Shown: piece by piece, positions 1-62,206 of the stretch
How the letters are laid out: the number at the start of each line of letters is the position of its first letter
How positions within the stretch are numbered: the stretch's first letter is position 1
From: Paragemmobacter amnigenus
Lineage (GTDB): Bacteria; Pseudomonadota; Alphaproteobacteria; Rhodobacterales; Rhodobacteraceae
DNA length: 64,000 nucleotides
Direction of reading: 5' to 3'
Assembly: GCF_009908265.2 (NCBI RefSeq)
Contig: NZ_JAAATX020000005.1
Location: forward strand, 62,001 to 126,000
Notes under the pieces: generated by a model
Told to the model about the DNA's origin: nothing
Database searches by the model: none
Seen by the model: only the letters and a program-made list of their open reading frames with translations
Made by a program: the position numbers and the translations under genes

Positions 1-77
1 CGCACGAAGCCGGACGCCGGTTCGAAGCCGCGCATCCGGCGGTTCGGGTCTGGCGGGGGAAGCGGTGCGCGGGTCAT
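1..77 (-). CDS. DUF721/DciA-like protein, N-terminal fragment
   Basis: Only the first 25 codons lie in the window; the gene runs off the left edge. The ATG is at 77-75 and reads MTRAPLPPPDPNRRMRGFEP followed by ASGFV. The basic GFEPA-type start resembles the DUF721 (DciA-like) proteins that usually sit divergent to mutY in Rhodobacterales. DciA-type proteins help load the replicative helicase. Identity is inferred from this short stretch and from the divergent position next to mutY, so it is tentative. Confidence 0.5.
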   Translation of the reverse strand, partial: MTRAPLPPPDPNRRMRGFEPASGFV

Positions 78-156
78 CTGGTCCTTCCGGGTTCGCCCGC
101 TATTCTAGCGGTGGGGCGGCGCGGTGCAAATGACACCGGCAGGAAGGGCATAAAGA

Positions 157-1218
157 ATGCGTGACAGCGACGCGAGCGCTTTGGCGGCGGACCTGCTGGA
201 CTGGTACGACCGCAACGCGCGGTCCATGCCTTGGCGCGTTCCGCCCGGGGATCGCAAGGCCGGTATCCGCCCCGATCCCTATCGGGTCTGGCTGTCCGAG
301 GTGATGCTGCAACAGACGACCGTCGCGGCGGTGCGGGACTACTTCCGCCGCTTCACCGACCGCTGGCCCACCGTGGCCGATCTGGCCGCGGCCGAGGATG
401 CGGCGGTGATGGGGGAATGGGCTGGGCTGGGCTATTACGCCCGCGCGCGAAACCTCCTGGCCTGTGCGCGGGCGGTGGTGCGCGATCATGGCGGGGTGTT
501 TCCCGCCACGCGCGAGGGTTTGCTGACCCTGCCGGGGATCGGGCCCTATACCGCCAGCGCCATCGCGGCCATCGCCCATGACGAGGCGGCGACGGTGGTC
601 GACGGCAATGTGGAACGGGTGATGTCGCGCCTGTGGCTGGTGACGGACCCGCTGCCCGCGTCCAAACCGGAACTGACGCGTCTTGCCGCGATCCTGACGC
701 CTGCCACGCGGCCGGGCGATTACGCGCAGGCGGTGATGGACCTTGGCGCCACGATCTGCACGCCGCGCAATCCGGCCTGCGGCATCTGCCCGTGGCGCGA
801 CCCCTGCCGCGCGCGGGCCGAGGGGGTGCAGGCAACCCTTCCGCGCAAGGCCGAAAAGGCGGCAAAGCCCGTGCGTCAGGGTGTTTTGTGGATCGCGCGG
901 CGTGCAGATGGCGCGGTGCTGGTCGAACGGCGGGCCGAGAGGGGGTTGCTGGGCGGGATGCTGGGCTTTGTCGGGTCGGACTGGGACGGGGCGGGGGGCG
1001 ATGCGCCACTGGACCTGCCGTGGCGCCCGGCGGGCGAGGTGCGCCATACCTTCACCCATTTCCACCTGATCCTGACGCTGATGGTGGCCGAGGCGGGCAT
1101 GGATGCCCGCCCGCGGCGCGGTGAATTCCTGCCGCGCGATGCCTTCCGGCCCGCCGATCTACCGACGGTGATGCGAAAGGCCCATGATTTGACCGCCGCC
1201 GCCCTTGCATCGCCTTGA
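157..1218 (+). CDS. mutY: A/G-specific adenine glycosylase MutY
   Basis: Base-excision repair glycosylase that removes adenine mispaired with 8-oxoguanine. The 353-aa protein has the helix-hairpin-helix LPGIGPYTASAI (about residues 125-136). Catalytic residues are Glu48 in SEVMLQQT and Asp149 in VDGNVERV. The four cysteines of the [4Fe-4S] cluster are at 201, 208, 211 and 217 (C-x6-C-x2-C-x5-C). The C-terminal third is the MutT-like 8-oxoG recognition domain (about residues 235-350). Length is normal for the family. It is divergent from the DUF721 fragment, and the following alkB starts about 70 bp downstream. With mutM at 41 kb the window holds two parts of the GO repair system. Confidence 0.97.
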   Translation: MRDSDASALAADLLDWYDRNARSMPWRVPPGDRKAGIRPDPYRVWLSEVMLQQTTVAAVRDYFRRFTDRWPTVADLAAAEDAAVMGEWAGLGYYARARNLLACARAVVRDHGGVFPATREGLLTLPGIGPYTASAIAAIAHDEAATVVDGNVERVMSRLWLVTDPLPASKPELTRLAAILTPATRPGDYAQAVMDLGATICTPRNPACGICPWRDPCRARAEGVQATLPRKAEKAAKPVRQGVLWIARRADGAVLVERRAERGLLGGMLGFVGSDWDGAGGDAPLDLPWRPAGEVRHTFTHFHLILTLMVAEAGMDARPRRGEFLPRDAFRPADLPTVMRKAHDLTAAALASP

Positions 1219-1289
1219 GGCTGCCGCAAGGGCGGCATTACATTTGCAGCAGTGACGATGAACCGGTGCCGTTAAAGCGGGTGTCCCTG

Positions 1290-2441
1290 ATGCAATCTGC
1301 CACGCTCGATCTGCAAAGCCCCCTGCGCGCGCTTCCGTTCTGGATGTCGCTGGCGCTTGTTCCGATGGCGGTCCTTTCGGCCGTGACGGGGGGATGGGGT
1401 GTCATCCTTCTGCCCGCCTCGACATGGTGGTTGTTCACGCTGCTCGACCGGCTGACCGGCAAGGAAGAGGCGAACCCCGACCCCGCCACGCCGGATGCCG
1501 CGCTGGGATGGTATCGCGCGATCACGCTGGTCTGGTTTCCGGTGCAACTGGCGCTGCTGGTCTGGCTGCTGTGGTATGTGCCGCGGGCCGGGCATCTGTC
1601 GATGGCGGAAAAGTTCGGCGTGTTCTTCGGGATGGGGGTCGTCGCCGGGACCATCGGGATCAACTACAGCCACGAGCTGATGCACCAGAAATCGGCGGTG
1701 GAGCGGTGGTTGGCGGACCTGCTGCTGGCGACCGTGCTGTACAGCCATTTCCGGTCGGAGCACCTGCGGGTCCATCACCAGTGGGTCGGAACCCCCGGCG
1801 ATCCGGTCACGGCGCGGTATAACGAAGGGTTCCACCGGTTCTTTCCCCGCGTTCTGGTCCAGTGCCGCAGGTCGGCATGGGGGTCCGAGACCGCGATGCT
1901 GGCGCGTCGGGGGTTGCCGTGGTGGCACCGGACGAACCCCTATTGGCGCTACTGGGTGTTACAGGCGGGGATGCTGGGTCTGGCGCTGGCGCTGGGGGGC
2001 TGGGTCGGGCTGATGCTGTTCCTGTGGCAGGCGGTGGTGGCGGTGTGGCAGCTGGAGCTGGTCAATTACATCGAACATTACGGCCTGACCCGCCGCCATC
2101 TGGGCGAGGGGCGGTACGAGCATGTGATGCCGCACCATTCGTGGAACGCCACCTATCGGGCGTCGAACTGGCTGCTGATCAACCTGCAGCGCCATTCGGA
2201 CCACCATTACAAACCCGACCGCCGCTTTCCGCTGCTGCAGACCTATGACGAGGACGCAGCGCCGCAATTGCCCTATGGCTATCCGCTGATGACCATCGCG
2301 GCGATGATCCCGCCCTTGTGGAAGCGGATCATGAACCACCGCGTCAAGGCGTGGCGGCGGCGGTTCTATCCGGACATCACCGATTGGCACGCCTATAACA
2401 AGGCGGTGAACCCGAGGCCCGCGCGTCAGGTCGGCGCGTAG
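1290..2441 (+). CDS. alkB: alkane 1-monooxygenase (AlkB family)
   Basis: Integral-membrane non-haem di-iron hydroxylase of 383 aa that oxidises the terminal carbon of n-alkanes with rubredoxin electrons. The histidine boxes are HELMH (128-132), EHLRVHH (157-163), NYIEHYGL (His263) and LQRHSDHH (299-306), the AlkB pattern. Several hydrophobic segments lie before residue 150 and around 222-257. The start at 1290 (MQSATLDLQ) gives a normal N-terminus; upstream in-frame codons encode an atypical polar stretch. No rubredoxin gene is adjacent. The 3' end overlaps the 3' end of a convergent TetR gene by 16 bp, suggesting local regulation. Exact substrate range cannot be read from sequence. Confidence 0.9.
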   Translation: MQSATLDLQSPLRALPFWMSLALVPMAVLSAVTGGWGVILLPASTWWLFTLLDRLTGKEEANPDPATPDAALGWYRAITLVWFPVQLALLVWLLWYVPRAGHLSMAEKFGVFFGMGVVAGTIGINYSHELMHQKSAVERWLADLLLATVLYSHFRSEHLRVHHQWVGTPGDPVTARYNEGFHRFFPRVLVQCRRSAWGSETAMLARRGLPWWHRTNPYWRYWVLQAGMLGLALALGGWVGLMLFLWQAVVAVWQLELVNYIEHYGLTRRHLGEGRYEHVMPHHSWNATYRASNWLLINLQRHSDHHYKPDRRFPLLQTYDEDAAPQLPYGYPLMTIAAMIPPLWKRIMNHRVKAWRRRFYPDITDWHAYNKAVNPRPARQVGA

Positions 2442-3049
2442 GCGCGCAGGAAAAGCTTTACCGACCGGCCGACATGGGATTTCAGCGCCGTCTCGTCGGG
2501 GGTGCAGCCGCCGCAGAACCGCCGTTCCATCGCATCGAAGCCCAGCCACAGGGCGAGAAGATCCTCGGCCGCACGGGCGGGGTCGTCGAAGGCGACCAGC
2601 CCCTCGGCCTGCGCGCGGAGGAGGATGTCGGAGAGCAGGCGTCGCACCTGACCCGGTCCCGCCTCGAAGAAACGGCGGCCCAGATCGGGGTTGCGCTGCG
2701 CCTCGAGGCTGACGGCGCGGTCGAGGGCGAGGTGGCAGGGCTGCGTCAGCATCGATACGAGCGCGAGGCCGAAGCGGGTGAGCAGTTCTTCCAGCCCACA
2801 GCCGCCCGTGGGGGCAGAGCAGAGGGCCTGTTTCAGACGCTCCGTCTCGCGTTCGACGATGGATTCGAAGATCGTCGCCTTGTCGCCGAAATGGCCATAG
2901 ACCGTGACCTTGGACACGCCCGACCGCGCGGCGATGGCCTCGATCGCGACGCCGTCGATGCCGCGTTCGGCAAACAGGGATTGTGCGGCGTCGAGGATCG
3001 CCTCGCGCTTTTCAAGGTCTTTCGGGCGACCAAGGGTCTTTAGCGCCAT
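2426..3049 (-). CDS. TetR/AcrR family transcriptional regulator
   Basis: A 207-aa regulator with an N-terminal TetR helix-turn-helix (residues about 15-60; AARSGVSKVTVYGHFGDK is the recognition region) and a variable C-terminal ligand domain. The start at 3049 (MALKTLGRPKDLEKREAILD) is preferred because it begins just before the HTH domain. An upstream in-frame ATG would add 26 residues with no family match. It converges on alkB with a 16-bp overlap of coding ends. The effector is unknown; alkane or fatty-acid responsive control of alkB is a plausible inference only. Confidence 0.9.
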   Translation of the reverse strand: MALKTLGRPKDLEKREAILDAAQSLFAERGIDGVAIEAIAARSGVSKVTVYGHFGDKATIFESIVERETERLKQALCSAPTGGCGLEELLTRFGLALVSMLTQPCHLALDRAVSLEAQRNPDLGRRFFEAGPGQVRRLLSDILLRAQAEGLVAFDDPARAAEDLLALWLGFDAMERRFCGGCTPDETALKSHVGRSVKLFLRAYAPT

Positions 3050-3142
3050 GTCGAAGGCCCCGCACGGTTCCTGTGCCGTCGGGGGGGACGCTACGCGCGG
3101 ATCGGTTCCGAAACAAGTCATGGCCATGATCCCATGCGGAAA

Positions 3143-3178
3143 GGGGCGGCCGGTCGCACCTTGGCAACCGGCCGCCCC
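3143..3178 (-). terminator. rho-independent terminator of the repeat-protein gene
   Basis: A perfect 12-bp stem GGGGCGGCCGGT / ACCGGCCGCCCC (3143-3154 with 3167-3178) has a 12-nt loop. Reading on the minus strand it is followed by TTTCC. It lies 19 bp beyond the stop of the minus-strand secreted repeat protein. Confidence 0.75.
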
Positions 3179-3196
3179 GCTGGCTGGCTTTGCGGA

Positions 3197-3706
3197 TCAG
3201 TCGTCATGCGGTTGCAGGGCGACGAGCTCTGCCAAGGTGTATTGCGCGGGGTCGACCCCGATGGCGGCGGCAAGGGCAGCTTCGCCGGGGGTGACGACTT
3301 CTGCGGGGTTCGCCGCCTTGCGGTTCGCGCCCGAGAGGATGAAACGCTCTTCCGTCGTGTCGCCATCGGCGCGGGCCTCGATCAGGCGCTGAAGCTCGGC
3401 CGCGGTGTATTTGCCGGCTTCGACACCGGCCAGTGCGGCCAGTTGCGCCAGACCGGGGGCGTTCAGGTCGGAACCCGAGGTCCGGTTCGTGCCGGACAGG
3501 AAGTAGTCGAGGCGCGCCGTGTCGCCGTTTTGACGCGCTTCGGTGATGTTGATCAGTTCGGCGCGGGAGTAGCGGCCCGGTTCCACACCGGCGCTGAGGG
3601 CGAGTTGCACGTCGCCCGCATTCAGGCCCGGCTGGACGCTGGAGGCCGAGGCGGCACCGGCCAGTGCGGCGAGGATCAGGGCAGAGGTTGCGAATTTGCG
3701 GATCAT
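3197..3706 (-). CDS. secreted protein with three internal repeats
   Basis: I do not recognise a named family. The 169-aa protein starts with a signal peptide (residues 1-21, cleavage near ASAS). It then carries two full copies of a ~48-residue unit: residues about 28-75 and 81-129, each with an AGVExGxY core, an AEL helix and a FLSGTNR/ILSGANR end. A third shortened copy follows at about 138-165 (IGVDPAQYTLAEL). It is probably periplasmic or exported. It is monocistronic, with a strong terminator downstream and an AT-rich promoter region upstream. Function unknown. Confidence 0.8.
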   Translation of the reverse strand: MIRKFATSALILAALAGAASASSVQPGLNAGDVQLALSAGVEPGRYSRAELINITEARQNGDTARLDYFLSGTNRTSGSDLNAPGLAQLAALAGVEAGKYTAAELQRLIEARADGDTTEERFILSGANRKAANPAEVVTPGEAALAAAIGVDPAQYTLAELVALQPHDD

Positions 3707-4063
3707 GATGGTTCCCCTTTCAACGGGAGTGTCGGTCTTTGGACATGCATCCTCCGTTCCGTGCAGGGGTCTGCCCGGCCAGCGGTACGGCGATGCGGTG
3801 TTTTCAGTCTTTGCGGGGCGGCTTGGCCCCGTCAGGGAGCAGTCTGCGGGAATGTTCGGATCAGCACATGGTCTTGCCTGCGGTTCGTTTCGTCATGGCT
3901 AATAGATATACTGAACGGTGGCGTATGCAATATATAAATGAACGGTATCGTACAAAAACTTTCCGTGATCTGCGCGCCACGCTTTGCTGATGGTTCCGCG
4001 GGGCGGGACGGGGGGAACCAGTCGCGCGGGCGGGCGCTGTTCACGGAAGGGCGGAGGATGCGC
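3707..4063. promoter_or_regulatory. divergent intergenic region with a direct repeat
   Basis: A 357-bp gap between two divergent genes. Its centre (about 3900-3960) is unusually AT-rich for this genome. It contains the direct repeat TGAACGGTnnCGTA at 3912-3925 and 3939-3952, 27 bp apart. This could be a regulator-binding site for either flanking gene. No RNA gene or ORF with support was seen here. Confidence 0.45.
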
Positions 4064-4576
4064 ATGACCGATGAACCAAGGGTGAAGGTGCCGATCCGTC
4101 CGGACGGGTTGCAACTGGACGACCATCCCGACTGGCAGCGACTCTTCTGGCGGGCCGAGCGGATCGGGTGGGCGGGCTTTGCTCTGGTGATCGGGATGGC
4201 GCTGGCGGGGCTGACGGGGCGCGGGGGGTGGCTGGCGGTGGCCGAGCATCGGGCCGGTGCCGCGCTGGTCGAGGCACCGCGCTTTTCGCGGCGGGGCGAG
4301 ACGGCACTGATGGAGGTGGCCTTTGGCATCGGGGCGGGGCGGCATCTGCTGGCCATCGGGGGCGGGTTTCTGGCGCATTACGAAGTGGTGGGGATCGTCC
4401 CGCCGCCACTGCGGTCGGTCGCGGCGGGGGACGGGCTGGCCCTGCAATTCGACACGGTCGGGACCGCGCCGCATCGGGTGCGGCTTTATCTGCGCGCACG
4501 GGAGGCGGGGCTGATGCGGGCGCAGGTGGTGGTCAATGGCGCGGGGGTCGGGCTGCGCAGCCTGATCCTGCCATGA
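4064..4576 (+). CDS. single-pass membrane protein of unknown function, partner of DUF421
   Basis: A 170-aa protein with one clear transmembrane segment (about residues 36-51, WAGFALVIGMALAGLTG) and a soluble C-terminal part rich in beta-type stretches. The start at 4064 is chosen because GGAGG at 4053-4057 lies 6 nt upstream; the ATG at 4058 would overlap that ribosome site. It is followed after 9 bp by a DUF421 gene and so is probably co-transcribed with it. No catalytic motif is visible. Function unknown. Confidence 0.75.
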   Translation: MTDEPRVKVPIRPDGLQLDDHPDWQRLFWRAERIGWAGFALVIGMALAGLTGRGGWLAVAEHRAGAALVEAPRFSRRGETALMEVAFGIGAGRHLLAIGGGFLAHYEVVGIVPPPLRSVAAGDGLALQFDTVGTAPHRVRLYLRAREAGLMRAQVVVNGAGVGLRSLILP

Positions 4577-4585
4577 GGTGAGGCA

Positions 4586-5035
4586 ATGGACAGCGTATTC
4601 CGGGCGGTGGCCGTCTATCTGGTGCTTCTGGTCGTCACGCGGCTATCGGGGCGGCGGACGATGGCCGAGGTGACGGCCTTCGACTTTCTCCTGCTGCTGA
4701 TCATTGCCGAGACGACGGATCAGGCGCTGCTGGGGGACGACTTCTCGGTCACCAACGGGCTGATCGTGATCGTAACGCTGGCGGCGGTGGATGTGGGGCT
4801 GAGCTATGTGAAATCCTGGTCGCCCCGGTTGGCGCTGGTGATCGACGGGGCGCCGTCGGTTCTGGTGTCGGACGGGGTGGTGGATTGGGCTACGCTGCGG
4901 CGGGCGCGGGTGGATATCGGGGACGTGCTGGAATCCGCGCGGGACAAGCACGGGCTGAAGCGGCTGGACCAGATCGATTGCGCCGTGCTGGAAGTGGGCG
5001 GCGGGATCAGCATCATCCCGAAGGACGACCGCTGA
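4586..5035 (+). CDS. DUF421 (YetF/YcaP-type) membrane protein
   Basis: A 149-aa protein. Hydrophobic helices occupy residues about 5-20 and 32-72, and a small cytoplasmic domain follows (LALVIDGAPSVLVSDGVVDW onward), the usual DUF421 layout. The motif RLSGRRTMAEVTAFDF near residue 20 matches the conserved first loop of the family. It is translated from ATG 4586 after GAGG. Family members affect stress or spore phenotypes in other bacteria, but no activity is established. Likely forms a two-gene operon with the preceding membrane protein. Confidence 0.88.
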   Translation: MDSVFRAVAVYLVLLVVTRLSGRRTMAEVTAFDFLLLLIIAETTDQALLGDDFSVTNGLIVIVTLAAVDVGLSYVKSWSPRLALVIDGAPSVLVSDGVVDWATLRRARVDIGDVLESARDKHGLKRLDQIDCAVLEVGGGISIIPKDDR

Positions 5036-5043
5036 CGAAAAGA

Positions 5044-5067
5044 CCCCGCCATGCGGACATGGCGGGG
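5044..5067 (-). terminator. terminator of ccrM
   Basis: A perfect 10-bp stem CCCCGCCATG / CATGGCGGGG (5044-5053 with 5058-5067) and a CGGA loop. On the minus strand it is followed by TCTTTTC, so it fits termination of ccrM. It may also stop the convergent DUF421 transcript. Confidence 0.8.
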
Positions 5068-5123
5068 CAGTGGCACCGCGGGCGGACCACGGTGCAGGCG
5101 TAAACGTTAAATCTTCGGATTGA

Positions 5124-6336
<1,213 letters not shown>

Positions 6337-6338
<2 letters not shown>

Positions 6339-6978
6339 AATTAGTTACGGAAACTTCTTGATACAAGATATTGTGGACGGGCTTGAACGAACGCCTATGG
6401 TGTGGGGTAATTCCCAAATCTAGAAGCGCCTGGAGATGGGCCGGAGTCGGGTAGCCTGCGTTCACTTCCCAGCCGTAGCCGGGGTGCTGTTGCGCCAAAT
6501 CCACCATGATCCGGTCGCGCGTGACCTTTGCCACGATGGATGCGGCGGCGATGGACAGGCAAAGCGCGTCGCCCTTCACGATCGCTTCGGCAGAGCAGGC
6601 GAGCGATCGGGGGATCATGTTGCCGTCGATGAAAGCATGATGCGGCTTCGTTGCCAGTCCGTGAACGGCGCGTTCCATGGCCAGATGGCTGGCGCGCAGG
6701 ATGTTCAGGGTGTCGATCTCCTCGACGCTGGCATGGGCGACGCAGACATCGGCGCAGGACAGGATGGCGTCATAGAGCGCGTCGCGGCGGGCGGCGGTCA
6801 GCGCCTTTGAATCGGCAAGGCCGGGGGGGATGTTCTGCGGGTCCAGCCGGACGGCGGCGGCGGTGACGGGCCCCGCGAGCGGGCCGCGGCCCACCTCGTC
6901 CACGCCCACGACAAGGGTGAGGCCCCGGTCGATGGCGGCTTGTTCATAGGCGAAGGAGGGGGGCGGAACGGGCGGCAT
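6337..6978 (-). CDS. rnhB: ribonuclease HII
   Basis: Cuts RNA in RNA-DNA hybrids, including single ribonucleotides in DNA. The 213-aa protein has the signature [16 protein letters not shown] (acidic pair Asp27-Glu28), [15 protein letters not shown] (Asp118) and the [15 protein letters not shown] block. The start at 6978 ([14 protein letters not shown]) is chosen because longer in-frame versions carry a low-complexity Pro-rich tail. It precedes ccrM on the same strand, an order common in Rhodobacterales. The stop overlaps the most upstream GANTC site of the ccrM region. Confidence 0.95.
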
Positions 6979-7112
6979 GGGCCAAGGACTAGCCCAAGGC
7001 GGCGCGGCGGGAAACGGGAAAAAAGGCGGGGGTAGGAGCTGCTCACCCTCCCACCCCCAGAGCGGGTGCGGCCTTGGCAAGGGACAGCCGCGCCCGTGAT
7101 GCGGCCCGGTGG

Positions 7113-7619
7113 TCAGTACCGGGAGCCGCCCACCCGGAAGCCTGCATCGCGCAGGCATTGGTCCGAGTAGATCCGGTCATTCTGGCCGTAGATGCGCGCC
7201 GTGCGTGCGCAATGCTGCGGCAGGCGCCAGTCGAAGCCTTCGTCGCGCAGGCAGCGTTCGCCGTAGACGGTGGCGGTGCCGGTGTTGCCCGTGATCTCGA
7301 TGGCGCAGACCGACGGGACGCGGGGGGCGCGGGCGGGCTGCGGGGGATAATAGGGCTGCTGCGGCTGGACGCGCGGGCGGTTCTTGTTGGCCTGATGCGC
7401 GATGATGCCCACGATGGCGAGCGCGGCCAGCGCCTTGGCCAGATCGTCATTGTCGGCGCGGGCGGGCACGGCGGAGCCTGCCAGAAGGCCCAGCGCGGTG
7501 GCAGCGGCGGCGACCAGCGCGATCAGGCGGCGGCTGATTTCCCGCGCCGGAACGGCCGCGGGGCGCGGGAGGTTCGAGGTGATGACCATGGTTTCGGCCA
7601 GCGTTTCCGAGCGGTACAT
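7113..7619 (-). CDS. exported protein with Cys-containing C-terminal domain
   Basis: A 168-aa protein. A short N-terminal cytoplasmic stretch is followed by a hydrophobic segment ending ARAD (about residues 32-55), which looks like a late signal peptide or anchor. A Pro/Gln-rich linker ([15 protein letters not shown]) follows. The C-terminal domain has four cysteines in a repeated pattern ([37 protein letters not shown]), suggesting two disulfides. The start at 7619 has GGAGG 8 nt upstream. Similar proteins occur widely in Rhodobacterales without assigned function. Confidence 0.8.
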
Positions 7620-43528: not shown

Positions 43529-44400
43529 GGCGTGTCCCGTTCGATCTGCAGGGCGCGGGCATAGTCGGCATCGCCGCGGGCGGCCTTCCACGCGCAATGG
43601 GCCATGATGCGCCAGCGGTAGAGCGGCAGGAGCGCGCGGGTGCGGGTGGCAATGGCGGCGTCGGGATAGGCGTCGAGCAGGGCATCGGCCCAACCTGCGG
43701 GCGCGATTGCGCCGGTGTAGAGCCACATCATGGCGGGCGAGATCAGGGTGGCGAGGTCTTCGCAGGGGTCGCCGAGGCCGGGGCATTGCCAGTCGATCAG
43801 CAGCGGGCCGTCGGGGCCGGTCAGGATGTTGCCCGCCACCACATCGCCATGGACGGGGCGCGCGGGGACGGGGGGCAGGTGCGGATCGTCGGGCGGGGCG
43901 GGCAGGCCCGGGGGCGCGAAGCTGGCGGCATGGGCAAGGATGGCCGCGCTGCCATTGGGCAGGGCGCGCAGGGGCGCGGCGGGCGGCGCGGCGGTGTGCA
44001 GGCGGTGCAGGAGATGCGCGACGGGGGCGGGCGGTCCGCCCCACCGGCCAGCGGGAAGATGGTCGAGGATCAGCCAGCCCTGCCCCGCCGCGCGCAGGAC
44101 GGGGGCAATCCCGAGCGGACCGAAATGGTGCAGGGCCGATTCCTCGGCCTTCGGGTCATTGGGAAACAGCGGCGTGACGGCGGCGGGGTCATGGCATTTG
44201 ACGACCAGCCCCCCCACGCGCCAGACGCGGTTCGTCCTGCCACCCGAGAGCGGCCGCCATTGCCCGTCATGGCCGGGGCACAACCGGTCCAGCGCCCGCA
44301 CAAGGGCGGGGTCGGTCGCGGGATCGGCAAAGGGGCGGGGCGGGGTCTGCATCTGCGGGCAGACCCTACTGCCACCGCCGACCGGCGCAAGGGCGTTCAT
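43525..44400 (-). CDS. aminoglycoside/choline kinase-like phosphotransferase
   Basis: A 291-aa protein with the APH/choline-kinase fold. The lysine region is VWRVGGLVVKCHD, Brenner's motif is PVHGDVVAGNILTG, and the metal loop is LIDWQCPGLGDPCEDLA. It likely phosphorylates a small molecule such as choline or thiamine; the substrate is not determined. ATG overlaps the flgD stop by 4 nt, an odd partner for a flagellar gene and perhaps only co-transcribed. A start at 44352 (MQTPPRP) is also possible. Confidence 0.8.
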   Translation of the reverse strand: MNALAPVGGGSRVCPQMQTPPRPFADPATDPALVRALDRLCPGHDGQWRPLSGGRTNRVWRVGGLVVKCHDPAAVTPLFPNDPKAEESALHHFGPLGIAPVLRAAGQGWLILDHLPAGRWGGPPAPVAHLLHRLHTAAPPAAPLRALPNGSAAILAHAASFAPPGLPAPPDDPHLPPVPARPVHGDVVAGNILTGPDGPLLIDWQCPGLGDPCEDLATLISPAMMWLYTGAIAPAGWADALLDAYPDAAIATRTRALLPLYRWRIMAHCAWKAARGDADYARALQIERDTP

Positions 44401-45044
44401 GGCATACGCAGGGCGGTGATCCGGTCGGCAGGCACCTGCACCCCGCCCCGCAGGATCAGCATCAGGTTCCCGTCACTTCGGCGCGCCTCTTCGATGCGGG
44501 CGTAATGGCTGACGGGCGCGGTGGCGATGACGGTGCCGTCCTGTTCGCCTTCCAGCGTCAGGTCATAGAGTCCCTGCGGCAAGGGGCTGCCCGACGGATC
44601 GGCGCCCAGCCACTGGTATGGACCGCCCGCAGGGGGCACATCCTCGCGCGCGACAAGGTTTCCTGCCGCGTCGCGGATCACGAGAACGGCCCTGTCCGCC
44701 CCGGGCACGGAGGGCAGTGTCAGGGTCACGGGCGTGCGGTCGAAATGGACGGGGGCGGAGGACTGCGCCTCTTGTCCCACCCAGCCCGAAAGCTGCGCCA
44801 TGCCGAGCAGGTTGAACTGCGCCGACATCTGGGAGAGCAGGGTATTCGCCTTTACCTGCTGTTCCACACCCGAGAAGGTGGCGAGTTGCACGGCGTAGTC
44901 GGCCGACTCGATGGGGTTCAGCGGGTCCTGATTCTGCATCTGCGTGGTCAGCATCCGCAGGAAGGTATTGAAATCCGAGGTTAGCGCGGGCTTGGCCGCG
45001 GCAGGGCTGCGCGTTGCGGCAGAGGTGGGGGGAATCGCGTCCAT
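44397..45044 (-). CDS. flgD: flagellar hook-capping protein FlgD
   Basis: Scaffold for hook assembly, 215 aa. The N-terminal FlgD signature is FLRMLTTQMQNQDPLNPIES, followed by LATFSGVEQQVKANTLL. The C-terminal FLG_D/Ig-like domain contains LVIRDAAGNLVARED and GLYDLTLEG. Located directly downstream of fliK on the minus strand (12-bp gap). It appears intact, in contrast to flgE 2 kb away. Confidence 0.95.
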   Translation of the reverse strand: MDAIPPTSAATRSPAAAKPALTSDFNTFLRMLTTQMQNQDPLNPIESADYAVQLATFSGVEQQVKANTLLSQMSAQFNLLGMAQLSGWVGQEAQSSAPVHFDRTPVTLTLPSVPGADRAVLVIRDAAGNLVAREDVPPAGGPYQWLGADPSGSPLPQGLYDLTLEGEQDGTVIATAPVSHYARIEEARRSDGNLMLILRGGVQVPADRITALRMP

Positions 45045-45056
45045 CTGGGGATCCTT

Positions 45057-46286
45057 TCACAATCGCAGATCAAGGCTGCCCGCCGACGCCACGGGCAGGG
45101 GCCACGTGCGGGGCGGGGGTGGCAGGGCTTCGTCAGGGGCCGCGACCGGCGCGGAATGGCCGCCGCCGGTATCGCCCTGCGGCATCGGCTGGCCATCATT
45201 CGCGGCAAAGCTGAGGGTGGTTCCGGCAAAGCCCGATTGCCGGAGTTCGGCGAGGATCAGCTCTCCCTGTCGCCGCAAGAGGTCGAGCGTGGCGGGTTGG
45301 TCGACCGAAAGGTGGATATGCAGACCCTCGGCGGTGCGCGTCAGTTCGAAGCGGAGCGTGCCCAACTCCTCGGGTCGAAGGGTGAGATGGACGGGGCCAT
45401 CGGGCGCGGTGCGGGCAAGGCGGACCATTTCGGCGGGCAAAGCCTCGGGCCGGTGGGCGGCGGGACGGGCGGCTTCGGGGCGGTCGGGGGCGGATTGCTC
45501 TGGCGGGAGCGGCGCAGGGGGCGCGGCGGACGGGTCGGGCAGGTGATCGGGTTGCGGCCCCGCTTCGGCAATGGGCGGCGCGGCAGGTTTGGCGGTTGCC
45601 CCCTGCGGGGCGGGCGGCAGGTCAAAGCGGGGATGGGCGTCGTCGGCGGGACCGGTCGCGCCTGCCCGGGCATCGGACGCGGGCGTGGGGTCGGGGCGCG
45701 CGGGATCGATCCGCGCAACGGGGCGCGGCGGGACCGGAAGCGGTGACGGCACGGAAGGCAAGGGCGAAGGTGCGATGGTGCCTGCCCTCTCCTCCGCCGG
45801 TGGCACAGGGAGAAGATTGGCATTTTCGGCAATGTTAGAGACGTTTTTCTGGTCCGGCGGCGTAACAAGTTCGGGTCCGGACGGCCCTGCCGCCGGTACG
45901 CTGGCCGCAACAGACCTTGCATCCCCCTCCTCTGACGGATTGGCCGGTGGGGATGCGGTGGGCAGCGGTGCGGGCGGAATTTCGGCAACGGGCGTGTCCG
46001 CCTGCGGAAGATGGGCTGGTGCCGCAGCGGTCGGATCAGGGGGAAGCTGGGGTTCCCTGATGACAGGCAGGGGCAGGGGGGGTGGCGGCAGTTGCAGGTC
46101 TGCCATCACCATAGCGGCGTCTTCCGCAGCGTCGGGCAGGACAGGGTCCGGCAGGGCCGTCGCTGTGACGTCCGCTTCTGCCAACGGCAGCAAAGCAGCC
46201 AGAACAGCGTCGAACTCCGCCCCGCCCGACGGCATTTGCGCGGGTCGGGTCGCGGGCGGGACAAGCAGCGCAATGGGGGGAATCAT
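45057..46286 (-). CDS. fliK: flagellar hook-length control protein FliK
   Basis: A 409-aa secreted ruler protein. The long N-terminal part is low-complexity Pro/Ala-rich. The conserved C-terminal Flg_hook domain (about 310-380) reads LTLRPEELGTLRFELTRTAE, followed by a LRQSGF-type end. It starts at ATG 46286, divergent from the rod-binding gene. It pairs with flgD in the hook-assembly step. Confidence 0.9.
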   Translation of the reverse strand: MIPPIALLVPPATRPAQMPSGGAEFDAVLAALLPLAEADVTATALPDPVLPDAAEDAAMVMADLQLPPPPLPLPVIREPQLPPDPTAAAPAHLPQADTPVAEIPPAPLPTASPPANPSEEGDARSVAASVPAAGPSGPELVTPPDQKNVSNIAENANLLPVPPAEERAGTIAPSPLPSVPSPLPVPPRPVARIDPARPDPTPASDARAGATGPADDAHPRFDLPPAPQGATAKPAAPPIAEAGPQPDHLPDPSAAPPAPLPPEQSAPDRPEAARPAAHRPEALPAEMVRLARTAPDGPVHLTLRPEELGTLRFELTRTAEGLHIHLSVDQPATLDLLRRQGELILAELRQSGFAGTTLSFAANDGQPMPQGDTGGGHSAPVAAPDEALPPPPRTWPLPVASAGSLDLRL

Positions 46287-46393: not shown

Positions 46394-46648
46394 ATGCAGA
46401 TCCCCCCTCTTTACCCGCAGGACAGCACGGTCCTTCAGCGCAAATCGGTCGAGCTGGAGCGGGCCTTCCTGACCGAGATGCTGCGTCACGCAGGTATATC
46501 CGCCCCCGAAGGCGCCTTTGGCGCGGGGATCGGCGGAGAGCAGTTCGCGTCCTTCCTGCGCGAGGCGCAGGCCGGTGCGATCGTGGACGGAGGCGGCATC
46601 GGACTGGCCGAACGTCTGTTCGAATCGCTGGTGGAGCGCGCGAGATGA
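46394..46648 (+). CDS. rod-binding (FlgJ N-terminal / CheL-like) protein
   Basis: An 84-aa protein corresponding to the rod-binding domain of FlgJ without the muramidase part, as in alphaproteobacterial CheL. The diagnostic block is ELERAFLTEMLRHAG, followed by GAFGAGIGGEQFASFL and a GIGLAERLFESL end. It starts a plus-strand pair and overlaps the next gene by 4 nt (ATGA). Probably exported to the basal body rod. Confidence 0.88.
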   Translation: MQIPPLYPQDSTVLQRKSVELERAFLTEMLRHAGISAPEGAFGAGIGGEQFASFLREAQAGAIVDGGGIGLAERLFESLVERAR

Positions 46649-46968
46649 CCGCCCCGTCGCATGGGATCACGGAGGTCATGGAGGCAATCCGCGAGGCCGC
46701 CCTGCGCGCAGATTTCGCCGCGATGGAGAGGCTTTCTGCAAGGTTAGAGACTGTTTTTACGCCAGAGGACCATCTGGACCCGCTGCTTTTGCAGGGCGTC
46801 GCAGAGCTGGCGCGCGGGAACGAGACCTGTTTGCGCGCGGCCCTTCTGGGCGTGCGTTCGGCACGCAGGCGCGTGGCCGAGCTGGCCGCGGCAGCACGGG
46901 CGGAAACCTATGACTGCACCGGCAGACGCCACGGGCACCCCGCAGGCCAGCCGGTCTGCAGGCTGTAA
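46645..46968 (+). CDS. FlgN-like flagellar chaperone candidate
   Basis: A 107-aa, mostly helical protein. ITEVMEAIREAALRADFAAM and the second helix CLRAALLGVRSARRRVAELA resemble FlgN, the export chaperone for hook-filament junction proteins. It overlaps the rod-binding gene by 4 nt and precedes the flagellin remnant. If FlgN-like, its clients FlgK/FlgL are missing from this window. Assignment is by helical pattern and context. Confidence 0.6.
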   Translation: MTAPSHGITEVMEAIREAALRADFAAMERLSARLETVFTPEDHLDPLLLQGVAELARGNETCLRAALLGVRSARRRVAELAAAARAETYDCTGRRHGHPAGQPVCRL

Positions 46969-47013: not shown

Positions 47014-48531
47014 TTAACCCCCTGCGCCCAATGTCGCCCTTGCGTTCCAAGACGGAACGGCGCGGCGGGCGGATCCCGACGCATCGGACAGAAGCCGCTC
47101 TGGAAACAGCGTCAAAGGCGCATGATTTGGAGAAATAGACATGTCTTCCATCCTCACCAACAACAGCGCAATGGTCGCGCTGCAGACCATGAAGACCATC
47201 AACGCCGGGCTGAGCCGGACGCAGCAGGAAATCTCGACCGGCAAGAGCGTGGCGACGGCAAAGGACAGCGCCACGGTCTGGATCACCTTCGCGTTGGACG
47301 CATAGGCGCGCTGCGTCTGGATGAGCGAGGTGAGCTCTGCGGCGATGTCGGTCGCTGACCCTTCGCGCGTGTAGCCGGAGATCTGGCCCGTCGGGCCCTT
47401 GCCGGCATCCCACAGGAAAAACGCGCCGGAGTCGGAGGTGAGCTTGAAGGCCTGTCGCCCGATGGACTGCAATCCGTTCACATTGGGCACGTCGACAAGG
47501 GGAATCTGGTAGAGGCGGCGATAAAGCCCGCTGTCGTAGCTGGCGACGACAAAACCCTGTTCGTCGATCTCGAGCGAGACGAGCGATCCGACGGGAAATC
47601 CGTTCTTCGTGATGTCGAGCGGCATGAAATCGGAGTCGAATTGCGTCATCCGGTCCGCCACCCCGATCCGGCCGATGTTCACCGCGATCGTGCCGCCCGC
47701 GACGGGGATGGCCACCGTCCCTTCGGCAGGATCATAGGCACCGCCGGCAAGGGCCGTGACGGACGCAAGCGATCCGGCCGAGGCGGTGTCATCGAAGACG
47801 AGCGTATAGCTGCCCACGACCGCGCCGCCCTGCGCCCCGTCGCGGATCGTCATGGTCCAGCTGTTCGACTGGCCCGTGGCGGGAACCACAGGGTCAAAGG
47901 TGATGTCGAGCCGTTCCGAATTGCCCAGACTGCCGAAGTATTCGACCGAGAGGGGCAGATCCGCCCCCGCGCCGCCCGCAGCCGTGGCCGAGGCCGGCAG
48001 GTTGAGGCCAAGGCTGATCCGTGTTGTCGGATCGACGCTGCGCTGGATCGTGCTGATGCGGACGGGTTCCAGACCGAGCGCGGAATCGCGCGGGTTGTCG
48101 GTGACCGTTCCGTCCTGCCGCGTGGGCCAGCCCAGAAGAAGAAGCCCGGTTTCGGTTTTCAGATACCCTTCCTCGTCCCGCCGGAAGGCGCCAGTGGGCA
48201 GAAGGAGAAGTTCCTGTTCATCCGTCGACAACGAGGACATGTCGCGCACCGGAAGCATCCCGCGCCCCGAGACCGCAAGATCGAGCGCATTGCCCGTGCT
48301 CACGAGCGAGCCCGCCTGATCGACGACCCTTTGGGTCAGTGCACGCACACCCCCCGCCGCATAGCTGCCGGGCCCGCCAGACCCGCCGATCACCAGCATT
48401 TCGAAATCGGCCTCGGCCCGGCGGTAGCCGAAGGTCGCGGAGTTGGCGATGTTGTCCGAAATCGCGGCAAGCCGCGCCGCGTTCGCGTTCAACCCCGCAA
48501 CACCGGCGTTGAAAGATGACGTGATCGACAT
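47014..48531 (-). pseudogene. flgE: flagellar hook protein FlgE, 3' end replaced
   Basis: The hook protein starts at 48531 (MSITSSFNAGVAGLNANAAR, typical rod/hook N-terminus) and keeps its central domains and the C-terminal motif ELTSLIQTQRAYASNAKVIQ. Authentic sequence stops at about 47275-47281. From there the frame reads the antisense strand of the flagellin 5' end, adding about 85 unrelated residues (VALSFAVATLLPVEI onward) to 47014. The last ~12-15 residues of the conserved D0 helix are lost, which should disturb hook assembly. flgK, flgL and flgI, usually downstream, are absent. Confidence 0.88.
47141..47305 (+). pseudogene. flagellin N-terminal fragment, truncated by rearrangement
   Basis: ATG 47141 opens a perfect flagellin start: MSSILTNNSAMVALQTMKTI, then INAGLSRTQQEISTGKSVAT and AKDSATVW. 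After about codon 47 the sequence turns into the antisense of the flgE 3' end and hits TAG at 47303-47305, giving only 54 codons. The D1-D0 C-terminal half of flagellin is absent from the window. A normal upstream gap (46969-47140) with TTAACC near 47013 may hold its promoter. It cannot make a filament subunit. Confidence 0.9.
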
Positions 48532-48616: not shown

Positions 48617-49462
48617 CTATCCGGCGTTCCGGCGCAGAAGGATCACCTCGATCCGGTTGTTGCGGGCGGCGGTGGGGTCGGCCGTGGCGGGGCGGCGATC
48701 GGCATGGCCGGTGACACGCTGCACCCTTGCAGGATCAAGCCCTGCCGCAACGCTGACGACACGGGCAGACTGGGCGCGGGCGGTCGACAGGTCCCAGACC
48801 GGATCGCGCGCCAGCGTGACGGGAAAGGCGCGGACATGGCCCGTCACGGCGACCGGATTGTCGGCAAGGGCCGCCACTTCGGCCACGACCCTTAGAAGAT
48901 CATGCAGCACCGGCGCGGGCTGGTCCGTATCGCCAAGGAAAAGGGCCGCATCATCGGTGTCGAAAAGTTCGACGACCAGCCCCTCGTCCGTCAGGCGCGT
49001 GACGACATGGCGCAAAAGCCGGTCCGAGATCATGCTTTCGCCCGAGAGCGCGGCAAGTTCCTGCTCGACCTTTCGCAACAGCTCTGCGTCCTCCTTGTCC
49101 ATCGCGCCCAGCGCGGGGCCGTCGACGCCCTGCGGCTGAGTGCTCTGGATCGTGGCATGGGCAGGATCGCCGGTGCCGTTGCGGGCCAGCGTGTCGTCGG
49201 TCATGATCGAAGTGCCGCCAAAGGCCCCGTCACCCCCGCCCGAGACGCGGTTGATCGGGATGGTCGGGTTGAAATAATCCGCCAGACCCTTCCGCTGTTT
49301 TTCGGTTGTCGCGTTCAGCAGCCACATCAGCAGGAAGAAAGCCATCATCGCGGTGACGAAATCGGCATAGGCGACCTTCCACGCCCCGCCGTGGTGGCCA
49401 CCGCCACCCATGACCTTTTTCCGTTTGATGATGACTGGCGCGGCATTCGCTTGCCTTGCCAT
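48617..49462 (-). CDS. motB: flagellar motor protein MotB
   Basis: Stator subunit of 281 aa. After the basic N-terminus (IIKRKKVMGGGGHHGGAWKV), the single helix AYADFVTAMMAFFLLMWLL carries the proton-binding Asp (AYAD). The OmpA-like peptidoglycan-binding domain is at about 165-280, ending TGHADRRPATADPTAARNNR. Intact. motA is not in the window. It precedes flgE on the minus strand. Confidence 0.94.
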   Translation of the reverse strand: MARQANAAPVIIKRKKVMGGGGHHGGAWKVAYADFVTAMMAFFLLMWLLNATTEKQRKGLADYFNPTIPINRVSGGGDGAFGGTSIMTDDTLARNGTGDPAHATIQSTQPQGVDGPALGAMDKEDAELLRKVEQELAALSGESMISDRLLRHVVTRLTDEGLVVELFDTDDAALFLGDTDQPAPVLHDLLRVVAEVAALADNPVAVTGHVRAFPVTLARDPVWDLSTARAQSARVVSVAAGLDPARVQRVTGHADRRPATADPTAARNNRIEVILLRRNAG

Positions 49463-49538: not shown

Positions 49539-50438
49539 TTAGGGATTTCCCGACCTGTGCGACAGGACCGGACGCACGAAAAGACCGATGGCCGCGTAAT
49601 CCCCGCAGAACTGGCGCGCGACCGTGTCGCGCAGACCCAGATCCAGCGTGACGGGTGCGGCGGGCGAAAGCGCCTCGAACCGCGCGCGGGGTTGCTGGGT
49701 GCGCGCTGCCAGAAAGTCGGCAAGATCGCGCGTGACCCAGCCGCAGGTTCCCGTCAGCACGAGGTCGAACCGCTGGAACCTGCGGTCGATCGCGACGAGG
49801 TCCAGATCAGGGCAGCGCGACAGGATGTGGTCGCGCAAGACCCGCGACAGGCCAGAGGCCAGCGCACCCGTCAGCGCGTCACCCGCAGCACCGATCCGGC
49901 CAAGGCAGGCGGAGAGGCGTTCCGCCTCGGCGCGCGACAGGGGGCGCGAGGGATAGATGTCATGACGCGCGGTGGCGGGATCCGAAGCGGTGACGACCAG
50001 CCCGCGTGTCCGGCGCAGAAGGCCCTCGGTCGCGGCGGCGCGCGACGGATCAAGACCCGCAAGGACAAGCCCGCCCGGGCGGGCAAGGGCCGTGGCCACC
50101 GCCGCCTGATCCATCCCGAGCAACGGGGCAAGCCGCGCCGAAACGCGTTCCGCATCGGCCCAGACGGCAAGCTGGGCCGACAGGTCGCGCAGACCGCCCT
50201 GCAGCGGCGGGCCGATCTGCACCGGCCAATCCATCACCGCGGCCAGAACCGAAATCCGCCGCGCTGTTTCGGGGGCCAGATCCGCGACCAGCACGACCCG
50301 ACCCTCGGCCAACCGGTCCAGAAGACCGCCGGTAGACATCCCCAAAAGCGGTGCCAGTGCCGCCGCCATCATGGCCGGCGACTGCGGCAGCGCAACAAGG
50401 CGCAGTTCGAGGGTCCGGTGTCTGGCGGGGCCGTCCAT
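49539..50438 (-). CDS. hypothetical protein with internal repeat in the flagellar cluster
   Basis: A 299-aa protein I do not recognise. Two related segments of ~75 residues, about 15-90 and 95-165, each contain a LLGM.. turn followed by VLVADLAPETARRI or LVLAGLDPSRAAAT, suggesting a duplicated domain. The C-terminal half (from about 190) has LVAIDRRFQRFDLVLTGTCG and a final LGLRDTVARQF stretch. Start at 50438 (MDGPARHRTLELRL) is a judgement; a longer version lacks typical features. Its place beside motB suggests a flagellum-related role. Confidence 0.65.
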   Translation of the reverse strand: MDGPARHRTLELRLVALPQSPAMMAAALAPLLGMSTGGLLDRLAEGRVVLVADLAPETARRISVLAAVMDWPVQIGPPLQGGLRDLSAQLAVWADAERVSARLAPLLGMDQAAVATALARPGGLVLAGLDPSRAAATEGLLRRTRGLVVTASDPATARHDIYPSRPLSRAEAERLSACLGRIGAAGDALTGALASGLSRVLRDHILSRCPDLDLVAIDRRFQRFDLVLTGTCGWVTRDLADFLAARTQQPRARFEALSPAAPVTLDLGLRDTVARQFCGDYAAIGLFVRPVLSHRSGNP

Positions 50439-50547
50439 TCCGTCGTCGGTCCTGAGCGCGGGCTTCCACAAGGGAAGCCCGAAGAAACGATTGTTACAGG
50501 ACCCATCAGAATGATGGACCATCGCCGCCGTCAAGTCTTGGCGGCGC

Positions 50548-51576
50548 TCACTCGGCCGAGGATCGGGCCCAGAGGTTGATATCCTCTTCACGGGCGATGC
50601 TGTCGATCTGCGCCAACTCTTCGGCGGTGAACTCCAGATTGCCGATGGCCCCGGCGCAATCCACCACCTGTTCGGGCCGCGACGCGCCGATCAGGGCCGA
50701 GGTGATACCACCGTTCCGCAGCACCCAGGCGATGGCCATCTGCGCCAGCGTCTGCCCCCGCTTGGCAGCAAGCGCATCCAGAGCGCGGACCGAGGCGAGG
50801 GCGCTTTCCGTGATCGTCGCGGGGTCCAGCGATTTGCCCTGCGCGGCGCGGCTGTCCTTCGGGATGCCGCCCAGATATTTCTTGGACAGGATACCCTGCG
50901 CCAGCGGCGTGAAGGCAATGGAGCCAAGCCCCAGTTCCGCCAGCGTGTCCTTCAGACCGTCATGTTCCACCCAGCGGTTCAGGATGTTGTAGCTGGGCTG
51001 ATGGATGACGAAGGGGGTCTTGAGCTCCTTCAGGATCGCATAAGCCTCGCGCGTGCGCTGGCTGTTATAGCTGGAAATGCCGACATAGAGCGCGCGGCCC
51101 GAACGGACGATGTGGTCGAGCGCGAGCATCGTTTCTTCCAGCGGCGTGTCGGGGTCGAAGCGGTGGGAATAGAAGATGTCGACGTAATCCAGCCCCATCC
51201 GTTTCAACGACTGGTCGCAGGAGGCGATGACGTATTTCCGGCTTCCCCATTCGCCATAGGGGCCGTCCCACATCAGGTAACCCGCCTTGGACGAGATGAT
51301 GAGTTCGTCGCGATATCCGGCGAAGTCGGTCTTGAGGATTTCGCCGAAGGCCTCTTCGGCGCTGCCGGGGGGCGGGCCGTAGTTGTTGGCAAGGTCGTAA
51401 TGGGTGATGCCGAGGTCAAAGGCCGTCTGGCAGATCGCGCGTTTGGTGTCGTGCGGCGTGTCATGGCCGAAGTTGTGCCAGAGGCCAAGGCTGATGGCGG
51501 GCAGTTTCAGGCCGGATTTTCCGCAGGTGCGGTAGACCATTTTCGAATAGCGGTCGGCGGCGGGGGTGTAGGGCAT
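50548..51576 (-). CDS. mgrA: L-glyceraldehyde 3-phosphate reductase-like aldo/keto reductase
   Basis: A 342-aa aldo/keto reductase of the YghZ/MgrA family. It has SLGLWHNFGHDTP, the catalytic Asp-Tyr region FDLGITHYDLANNYGPPPGS, Lys in LIISSKAGYLMW, and the NADPH end SALIGASRPEQV. GAGG lies 5-6 nt before ATG 51576. It lies downstream of xylA in the xylose locus and might reduce a sugar by-product; that link is inferred from position. Confidence 0.88.
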   Translation of the reverse strand: MPYTPAADRYSKMVYRTCGKSGLKLPAISLGLWHNFGHDTPHDTKRAICQTAFDLGITHYDLANNYGPPPGSAEEAFGEILKTDFAGYRDELIISSKAGYLMWDGPYGEWGSRKYVIASCDQSLKRMGLDYVDIFYSHRFDPDTPLEETMLALDHIVRSGRALYVGISSYNSQRTREAYAILKELKTPFVIHQPSYNILNRWVEHDGLKDTLAELGLGSIAFTPLAQGILSKKYLGGIPKDSRAAQGKSLDPATITESALASVRALDALAAKRGQTLAQMAIAWVLRNGGITSALIGASRPEQVVDCAGAIGNLEFTAEELAQIDSIAREEDINLWARSSAE

Positions 51577-61429: not shown

Positions 61430-62206
61430 CTACTCCACACCGGTGACATCGGGCGTCTGCCAGGCCAGATGCTGCCCGCCGTCGACGGCAATCATCTGGC
61501 CCGTCACGGCGACGGAATCGAGGAAAAAACCAAGCGCAGCGGTGATGTCGGCGGGGTTGGCGCCACGCTGCAGCACGGTCGCGGCACGTTGCGCCGCAAA
61601 GGCTTCGGCCGTCTGCCGGCCGCCCTGCAGGGTGGGGCCCGGACCGATGGCATTGACGCGGACGCGCGGGGCAAGGCCCTGCGCCGACGTCTGGGTCAGG
61701 GCCCAGAGGGCGGCCTTGGCGATGGTGTAGCTTGCGAAATCCGGCGTCAGCTTCCAGACGCGCTGGTCCACCATGTTCACGATCAATCCTTGGGCGACGG
61801 GCTCTCCTGCGGCGTCGGAAAGCGGATCGGGGACCTGCGCCGCGAAACGCTGCGTCAGCACGAAAGGGGCGCGCAGATTGGATTCGATGTGCCTGTCCCA
61901 ACTCGCCCGGGTCGCGGTGGTGAAATCGTCATGCTCGAAGATCGAGGCATTGTTCACCAGAACCGACAGCGGCCCGCCCAGCGCCTCGGCCGCGCGCGCG
62001 ATCAGCGTCTGCACCTGATCCTCGATCAGTACATCGGCGGCGACGGTTTCCGCACGGCGTCCCATGCGGCGGATCTCGTCGGCGACCGACGCGGCCTCGT
62101 CCCTGCTTCCGGCATAATGGATGGCAAGGTCATAGCCCCGCCCCGCAAGATAGAGCGCCATGGCGCGGCCAAGCCTGCGCCCCGCCCCCGTAACCAATGC
62201 CCGCAT
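61430..62206 (-). CDS. SDR-family oxidoreductase (pteridine reductase-like)
   Basis: A 258-aa SDR. The cofactor loop is ALVTGAGRRLGRAMA, the second-position Arg suggesting NADPH. NNASIFEHDDF and the catalytic YTIAKAALWALT (Tyr-x-x-x-Lys) follow. The GAGRRLG...NNAS style resembles FolM/PTR1 dihydromonapterin or pteridine reductases. ATG 62206 has AAAGGG upstream. It follows the small zinc-ribbon gene and lies upstream of uvrC on the same strand. Confidence 0.88.
   Translation of the reverse strand: MRALVTGAGRRLGRAMALYLAGRGYDLAIHYAGSRDEAASVADEIRRMGRRAETVAADVLIEDQVQTLIARAAEALGGPLSVLVNNASIFEHDDFTTATRASWDRHIESNLRAPFVLTQRFAAQVPDPLSDAAGEPVAQGLIVNMVDQRVWKLTPDFASYTIAKAALWALTQTSAQGLAPRVRVNAIGPGPTLQGGRQTAEAFAAQRAATVLQRGANPADITAALGFFLDSVAVTGQMIAVDGGQHLAWQTPDVTGVE

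Follow-up and report, generated by a model that had tools for sequence, protein, structure and literature searches.

In Paragemmobacter amnigenus, an open reading frame that begins as flagellin and ends as antisense flgE marks where about 24.6 kb of DNA has been deleted, with flagellin codon 44 and flgE codon 420 as the borders, and the same scar was found in other species of the genus and in other genera of the family. Sequence comparison makes it reasonably probable that the deletion is recurrent, produced by recombination tied to the same two positions in separate events in many lineages. Roughly six lineages of the genus, and some seven in other parts of the family, have lost a 25-kb machine at one and the same position. 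Gene-cluster losses are usually untidy and different in each lineage; a single joint of this kind looks like an ordinary deletion scar, but to find it repeated exactly across the family is unusual, and suggests a position-specific route of motility loss that has so far gone unrecognised. The motifs joined share almost no sequence, and the choice is between an unknown recombination activity directed at flagellar genes family-wide and a strong deletion hotspot. The joint also provides a sequence tag for strains that lost this flagellum in this way. The joint described in the original prediction, which was made from the 64,000-nt stretch of DNA analysed here (the window), is real and was undersold, and the interpretation given to it is partly supported; the family-wide recurrence is invisible from the window alone.

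Sequence data and comparisons

The window was taken from the forward strand (positions 62,001–126,000) of contig NZ_JAAATX020000005.1 of P. amnigenus assembly GCF_009908265.2, and all coordinates given are window positions. The genome holding it (G000; 4.14 Mb, 37 contigs) was compared with 18 others of its genus (genus sample of 19 genomes) and with a family sample of 394 genomes from 393 genera. Domains in the window were called with Pfam profiles, and flagellins in the genus and the family were surveyed with Flagellin_N (139 positions), a profile with which breaks past residue 139 would look full-length and fragments well below 40 residues were probably missed. Joints in the family were searched for with a degenerate joint pattern, allowing 3 mismatches. 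Trees were calculated for FlgE protein (41 sequences, L160 as outgroup) and for the species (gyrB, dnaA, ubiE, ubiB and fpg; 7,380 columns).

Structure of the joint

The chimeric ORF (47141–47305, plus strand, stop at 47303–47305) is 54 aa long and consists of flagellin residues 1–44 and 10 residues from antisense flgE; in the sequence, residue 44 is followed by T-V-W and then by further antisense flgE. The flagellin part (fliC', 47141–47272, plus strand) holds codons 1–44 of a fla1-type flagellin, matched Flagellin_N over positions 1–44 of 139 (E 1.5e-7), and over 47 aa shared 79–85% identity with six intact flagellins from the same genus, and 74% and 57% with flagellins from two other genera. 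On the minus strand, the hook gene (flgE', 47273–48531) starts with an ATG at 48531, is normal through codon 420 (47274–47272), and lacks its last ~15 codons and stop; Pfam matches over 47275–48531 were to Flg_bb_rod, FlgE_D2 and Flg_bbr_C, with the Flg_bbr_C match ending at position 35 of 46. Codons 1–420 of flgE' had counterparts with 58–66% identity in 17 of the 18 other genus members, G004 giving no match. Beyond codon 420 the frame stays open through antisense flagellin and its upstream region, giving flgE' an accidental C-terminal tail (47014–47272, minus strand); across ten joints of other genera these tails were divergent in sequence, some with an early stop.

Sequence and Pfam matches agree that, as had been predicted, the 5' part of flagellin and the 3' part of flgE are joined convergently inside both genes. 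The joint lies at 47270–47273, with a flagellin-type G at 47270, a flgE-type A at 47273, and the crossover within 47271–47272. The heptamer GGTCTGG (47275–47281), earlier proposed as the site, adjoins the joint, and the crossover is not inside it, but just to its left.

On both sides of the joint, the outer genes of the cluster survive in the order flgD (44397–45044, minus strand; Pfam FlgD, FlgD_ig), fliK (45057–46286, minus strand; Flg_hook), a flgJ-like gene for a rod-binding protein (46394–46648, plus strand; Rod-binding, E 5.8e-5, just below the curated cut-off), an ORF directly 5' of fliC' (46645–46968, plus strand; assigned to flgN by position, no Pfam match), fliC', flgE', and motB upstream of flgE' (48617–49462, minus strand; MotB_plug, OmpA). 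No IS element was found at the joint, unlike in IS-mediated cluster decay. Upstream of motB lies a 350-aa ORF (49539–50591, minus strand) without a Pfam match, with relatives in 15 of the 18 other genus members (33–53% identity over 65–96% of its length); 16% of it was covered in G010, and G004 and G014 held no relative. Judged by these matches, it appears to be a conserved unknown linked to the flagellar cluster.

The deleted interval

In five intact genus members with both genes on one contig (G005, G007, G008, G010 and G013), flgE and flagellin point towards each other, with about 24.5–24.7 kb separating flgE codon 420 from flagellin codon 45. For G005, 20 ORFs of this interval (a subset) were analysed by Pfam, which identified FlgK, FlgI, FliP, FliF, FliL, MotA, a transglycosylase, FlhA, FliR and FlhB, as well as FlgA, FlgG, a FliI-type ATPase, DUF1217, and a second FliL-like protein (under cut-off); 4 of the 20 were without a match, including the one that occupies the place of flgL, and for another one all matches fell under the cut-off. 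These genes, present in intact sisters, are gone from G000. The fliC' fragment was the sole Flagellin_N match in the whole genome, FlgI was not found in a search of the same 37 contigs, and flgE' was one of two Flg_bb_rod matches.

What was deleted is the core of an ancestral fla1-type cluster: flgK, flgL (by position), flgI, fliP, fliF, motA, flhA, fliR, flhB, flgA, flgG, fliI and their neighbours. The deletion took rod, ring, motor and export genes and left both outer cluster ends, and its effect is a permanent loss of the fla1-type flagellum. Of the two options of the original prediction, a deletion was the right one, as intact relatives hold ~24.6 kb between the two genes; the rest of flagellin, the end of flgE, and flgK, flgL and flgI are gone as foreseen, together with the whole core rather than flgKLI only. 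The other option, a reversible switch by inversion, was not supported: genome-wide searches for missing parts gave no second Flagellin_N match and no FlgI in G000, and no reciprocal half was found. Because the genome has no other flagellin match, G000 is predicted to be non-motile, as the original prediction expected, with no flagellar swimming.

Recurrence in the genus and the family

Within the genus, N-terminal flagellin fragments were found in 7 of 19 genomes (G000, G002, G003, G006, G014, G017 and G018), extending over profile positions 1–44 or 1–45 (the G002 match is drawn to 72, through a stop), and antisense flgE is entered at the same codon in all seven. Eleven genomes hold a longer fla1-type flagellin, and G004 (reduced, 1.5 Mb) gave no match. 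A second, strongly scoring flagellin is present in 16 members, the exceptions being G000, G017 and G004, and both flagellar systems seem to have been lost in G000 and G017.

Across the family, the joint pattern matched 12 of 394 genomes, namely G000, G002 and ten of other genera. Translation and gene order identified these ten as true joints with the same flank genes in the same order, except that fliK was undetected in G310, G158 and G410, and the flgN-position ORF was detected in none of the ten. In total, the joint was found in 17 genomes of 11 genera, 16 of them besides G000. A pattern-free scan of the family with Flagellin_N gave matches in 322 of 394 genomes, 13 of which were without a match better than E 1e-10; ten of these 13 were joint genomes and three had longer, FlgL-like frames, giving a joint count of at least 10 among the matches listed, in a scan to which fragments beside a full flagellin are only partly visible. 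G354 (two Flagellin_N matches, best E 2.8e-11) was left out of the joint inspection. The three longer frames (337–429 aa) are in G116, G283 and G299 (L189–L191), with one weak Flagellin_N match each, from positions 6–17 to 137–139; they are FlgL-like and without a flagellin match, and these genomes have perhaps kept hook-junction genes without a recognisable flagellin. Other Flagellin_N matches were absent from 11 of the 17 joint genomes, and G002, G003, G006, G014, G018 and G148 had two more each.

That the joint is an assembly or binning artefact is a negligible prospect. Several joint genomes are fragmented, but the joint is also present in four single-contig assemblies (G006, G182, G310 and G410) and in G002, an assembly of three contigs, and its position is identical across the 17 assemblies, which come from different species; the assembly chimera named earlier as a possible refutation is very unlikely, given the 16 assemblies besides G000. 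FlgI counts also follow the joint, with none in G000, one each in G002, G003 and G006 (beside the second flagellin), and two in seven intact genus members by the same search. Contig number, a rough proxy for isolates versus MAGs, tended to be smaller in the joint genomes of the genus than in the intact ones, a difference short of significance (7 joint vs 11 intact genomes, Mann–Whitney p 0.06).

Two further sources were examined. Among ten loci of named public relatives from a flgE scan, three from Rhodobacterales (L157–L159) were intact, with flgK after flgE, one (L160) was used as outgroup only, and six more distant ones were left out. In a plasmid collection, 187 records matched the flagellin start, and in the 40 of these that were listed, every alignment ends at residue 47; of three Paracoccus plasmid records, two carry an 843-bp flagellin CDS, whereas the remaining one is without annotation.

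Independent events and vertical inheritance

On the 41-sequence flgE tree, the 17 joint genomes formed 13 maximal joint-only groups, 6 of them within the genus, and the species, flgE and flank-gene trees of the genus, read by eye, gave the same six groups; these event counts come from gene trees with some weak nodes (45–48 in the flgE tree, 46–61 in the species tree) and from one genome per species. Supported groupings of joint with intact genomes were G000 with G012 (100), G002 with G010 (96), G003 with G013 (100), and G006 and G018 with G001 (100), and outside the genus, G182 with intact G214 (99) and G410 with intact G249 and G284 (99). Two clades are joint-only, G158 with G170, and G181 with G310 and G199, and these could be shared old events.

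A tree of interval genes from 11 intact genomes (3.1–14.4 kb each) matched the species tree except at one node, which groups G005 with G001 (100), as in the flank-gene tree, the species tree putting G005 with G008, G010 and G012 (61). Since the interval genes follow the species tree apart from this node, the intact state is ancestral and was vertically inherited. Vertical inheritance of the fla1-type cluster, with repeated independent losses in Rhodobacterales, is also reported in the parts of Tomasch et al. 2025 (PMC12363192) consulted. A mobile flagellar island inserting at the joint, or a loss followed by regain, was disfavoured, the interior genes following the species tree as described.

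For horizontal transfer, the sequences beside the joint were compared. Gene transfer agents are common in Rhodobacteraceae, and one old deletion allele, carried by such agents with the joint and both flanks, would account for a joint shared by 17 genomes; in a 396-bp comparison around the joint, G000 was indeed closest to another joint genome by a small margin (G003, 300, vs 297 for intact G010), the flagellin of its sister G012 being outside the comparison. Against this, within 33 bp of the joint, G002 matched intact G010 at 32/33 and 32/33 bp (best other joint genome, 28 and 30), and G003 matched intact G013 at 31/33 and 33/33 bp (best other joint genome, 27 and 31), which excludes imported joint DNA longer than ~30 bp for both, so that transferred tracts would need to be shorter than this in the clear cases. 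Over 396 bp, G014 and G017 were closest to intact genomes, and for G006 and G018 the nearest genome was the other of the two, followed by intact G001; when only the windows at the joint are counted, their intact sister and the nearest non-sister joint genome score the same or almost the same. The flgE' and flank-gene trees likewise place joint genomes with intact sisters. Horizontal spread of a single allele was therefore rejected for G002 and G003, the two best-resolved cases, in which the flanks follow the host species, and is highly improbable as a general explanation. Judged from these alignments, the joints apparently represent separate losses and not a transferred block.

Crossover position and mechanism

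Flagellin codon 45 was GCN or TCN in 30 of 30 intact flagellins (10 from the genus, 20 from other genera) and ACN in 17 of 17 joints, and antisense flgE supplies an A at the first base of this codon in 20 of 20 intact flgE genes (11 + 9). Base 47273 (the A of ACG) is accordingly flgE-type in every joint, with G or T in all 30 intact flagellins. Codon 44 was GCN in 12 joints and TCN in 5 (intact flagellins, 15/20 GCN and 5/20 TCN), and the crossover interval is 2 bp (47271–47272) in the former number of joints and 3 bp in five, including the same 2 and a T that fits both parents. All 17 joints, in 13 maximal joint-only groups, fit the same 2-bp interval just left of the shared GTYTGG, the same crossover throughout, as in site-specific recombination, while wobble bases vary between joints. 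The flgE side reads GTCTGA in G181 and GTCTGT in G182, with a shorter shared run there.

In ten intact relatives, the exact run shared by the two genes at the used site is 3–8 bp, and in 8 of the 10 it is longer than the alternatives 14–64 bp away in flgE; a run of 6–7 bp located 39 bp further in flgE in 6 of 10 was unused in the joints. Pairings as good or better (11-bp window, 1.6 × 1.7 kb) numbered 71–7,265 in the ten intact genomes, the used one counted, and exact matches of up to 13 bp nearby were unused in the 17 joints. A 60-bp comparison of both sites in the same genomes gave 24–32 identities, with no obvious paired arms beyond the core CNGTYTGG. Since good pairings are plentiful nearby and the shared runs are weak, microhomology or homology alone does not explain the choice of site, and microhomology as a sufficient cause, suggested by the original prediction, is not supported by these pairings or by a crossover that lies outside the shared run, beside it, in 17 of 17; the used site is nevertheless locally the best in 8 of 10.

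The main rival is an ordinary microhomology or replication-slippage deletion at CNGTYTGG, acting as a strong hotspot and becoming fixed where motility is unneeded, for example in culture. By this route, a 3' end within flgE would pair with some 8 nt of flagellin, leaving its last base mismatched (a G–T wobble where flagellin has GCN), and the flgE base would be carried across. The locally longest run at the used site is in its favour, as is the flgE base kept at the mismatch in 17 of 17, which a fixed direction of synthesis would give. The unused pairings, the even shorter shared runs of G181 and G182, and a span of 24.6 kb, which is long for a slippage deletion, weigh against slippage, and it is considered rather unlikely.

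Position-specific recombination at the flagellin and flgE sites, by an enzyme tolerating wobble variation, is the most likely mechanism, with chances that are about even. The deletion would arise repeatedly at two short sites in conserved coding motifs, D-N-A/S|A/S-V-W in flagellin and V-I-Q-T-V in FlgE, through a putative enzyme with relaxed recognition, either a site-specific recombinase or nuclease-coupled joining, rather than by chance slippage. A crossover that is constant despite varying wobble bases, with 3–8 bp shared, suggests such a relaxed recognition sequence. Evidence against an enzyme is that the sites share little beyond CNGTYTGG, unlike classical recombinase sites, and that the locally longest run in 8 of 10 fits a role for base pairing. 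No recombinase was identified by Pfam among the 20 ORFs scanned in the G005 interval (4 of 20 without a match), although such a gene may lie elsewhere in the genome; no obvious matching arms were seen in the ten intact genomes, and no circular product was found in viral contigs, where 17 stretches with the predicted circle-joint pattern and 1 with the joint pattern held no flagellar genes by tblastn. A more far-reaching version is a tentative possibility: a conserved enzyme-driven excision in Rhodobacteraceae would recognise the flagellin and hook-gene motifs and cut out the flagellar core in single cells, as an irreversible, differentiation-like switch from swimming to permanently sessile life, leaving scars at tree tips as switched lineages are short-lived.

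Age and constraint of the remnant genes

For flgE, dN/dS (NG86) within the genus was 0.05–0.11 in four joint–intact pairs and 0.06–0.13 in five intact–intact pairs, with 0.25 for G000–G012; between genera it was 0.27 for G410–G249 and 0.10 for G182–G214, vs 0.05 and 0.17 in two intact pairs, a third being saturated. In the joint–joint sisters G006 and G018, flgE' had 14 synonymous differences and 1 non-synonymous difference. Three joint–joint pairs of different genera were saturated at synonymous sites, with flgE' dN of 0.11–0.14 (three intact pairs, 0.14–0.28). In most comparisons, remnant flgE' thus showed no relaxation relative to intact pairs, and since the remnant genes for the most part retain the appearance of genes under selection, the majority of events probably happened recently, at tree tips, a reading preferred over constraint on truncated flgE', and one that perhaps allows separate events even within the joint-only clades. 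The higher ratios of G000–G012 and G410–G249 may mean that some events are older, and in G310 (L180, about 10132–9800), a frameshift in flgE' beyond about codon 313 points to older decay.

The same substitutions are compatible with a useful product, in which some function of truncated FlgE' or of the 54-aa flagellin peptide would let only this fusion survive. The excess of synonymous differences in G006–G018, the low flgE' dN at saturated synonymous sites in pairs of different genera, and a fliC' that is open over its codons in all 17 joint genomes would fit. Such a function is improbable, as the tails vary from genome to genome, G310 has a frameshift in flgE', G000 is without FlgI, the export genes lie in the deleted interval, and a base-exact breakpoint is not required for such a product; recent separate events explain the constraint equally.

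Relation to known systems

Programmed excision elements, such as the nifD element of heterocystous cyanobacteria and skin and SP-beta of Bacillus, resemble the present case in that a large segment, bounded by short positions in coding genes, is removed site-specifically. Excision of the nifD type or of skin repairs a gene, and the recombinase is encoded within the element, whereas here two genes are destroyed and the interval ORFs scanned held no recombinase. Flagellar phase variation of the Hin type is a DNA inversion; both are DNA rearrangements that switch flagella off, but the joint is a deletion, with no reciprocal half found, and is irreversible in the sequenced clone. In Paracoccus ferrooxidans pFER4 (L232), parts of the same cluster type were lost by IS-mediated decay, with IS3 and IS5 at the breaks; its fliK is short, and an 843-bp flagellin CDS is kept. 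As the G000 joint is without IS, pFER4 represents a different decay route.

The fla1 losses of Tomasch et al. 2025 (PMC12363192) concern the same cluster, with the order motB-flgEKLI ... fliC-flgN-flgJ-fliK-flgD near oriC, and are alike in vertical inheritance and repeated independent loss; in the parts of that paper compared, breakpoints are not described, and what differs from its account as seen there is that losses leaving an N-terminal flagellin fragment share one joint. Repeated independent fla1 losses are known from that source; in the open papers on flagellar losses, deletions and excision, covered mostly at abstract level, no shared breakpoint was apparent.

In G001, G005, G006, G014, G017 and G018, gyrB, recF and dnaN were not found beyond dnaA, where they are present in other genus members; the stretches beyond dnaA are shorter in G001 and G017, and gyrB is elsewhere in these genomes. 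The dnaA neighbourhood is probably rearranged in those six genomes.
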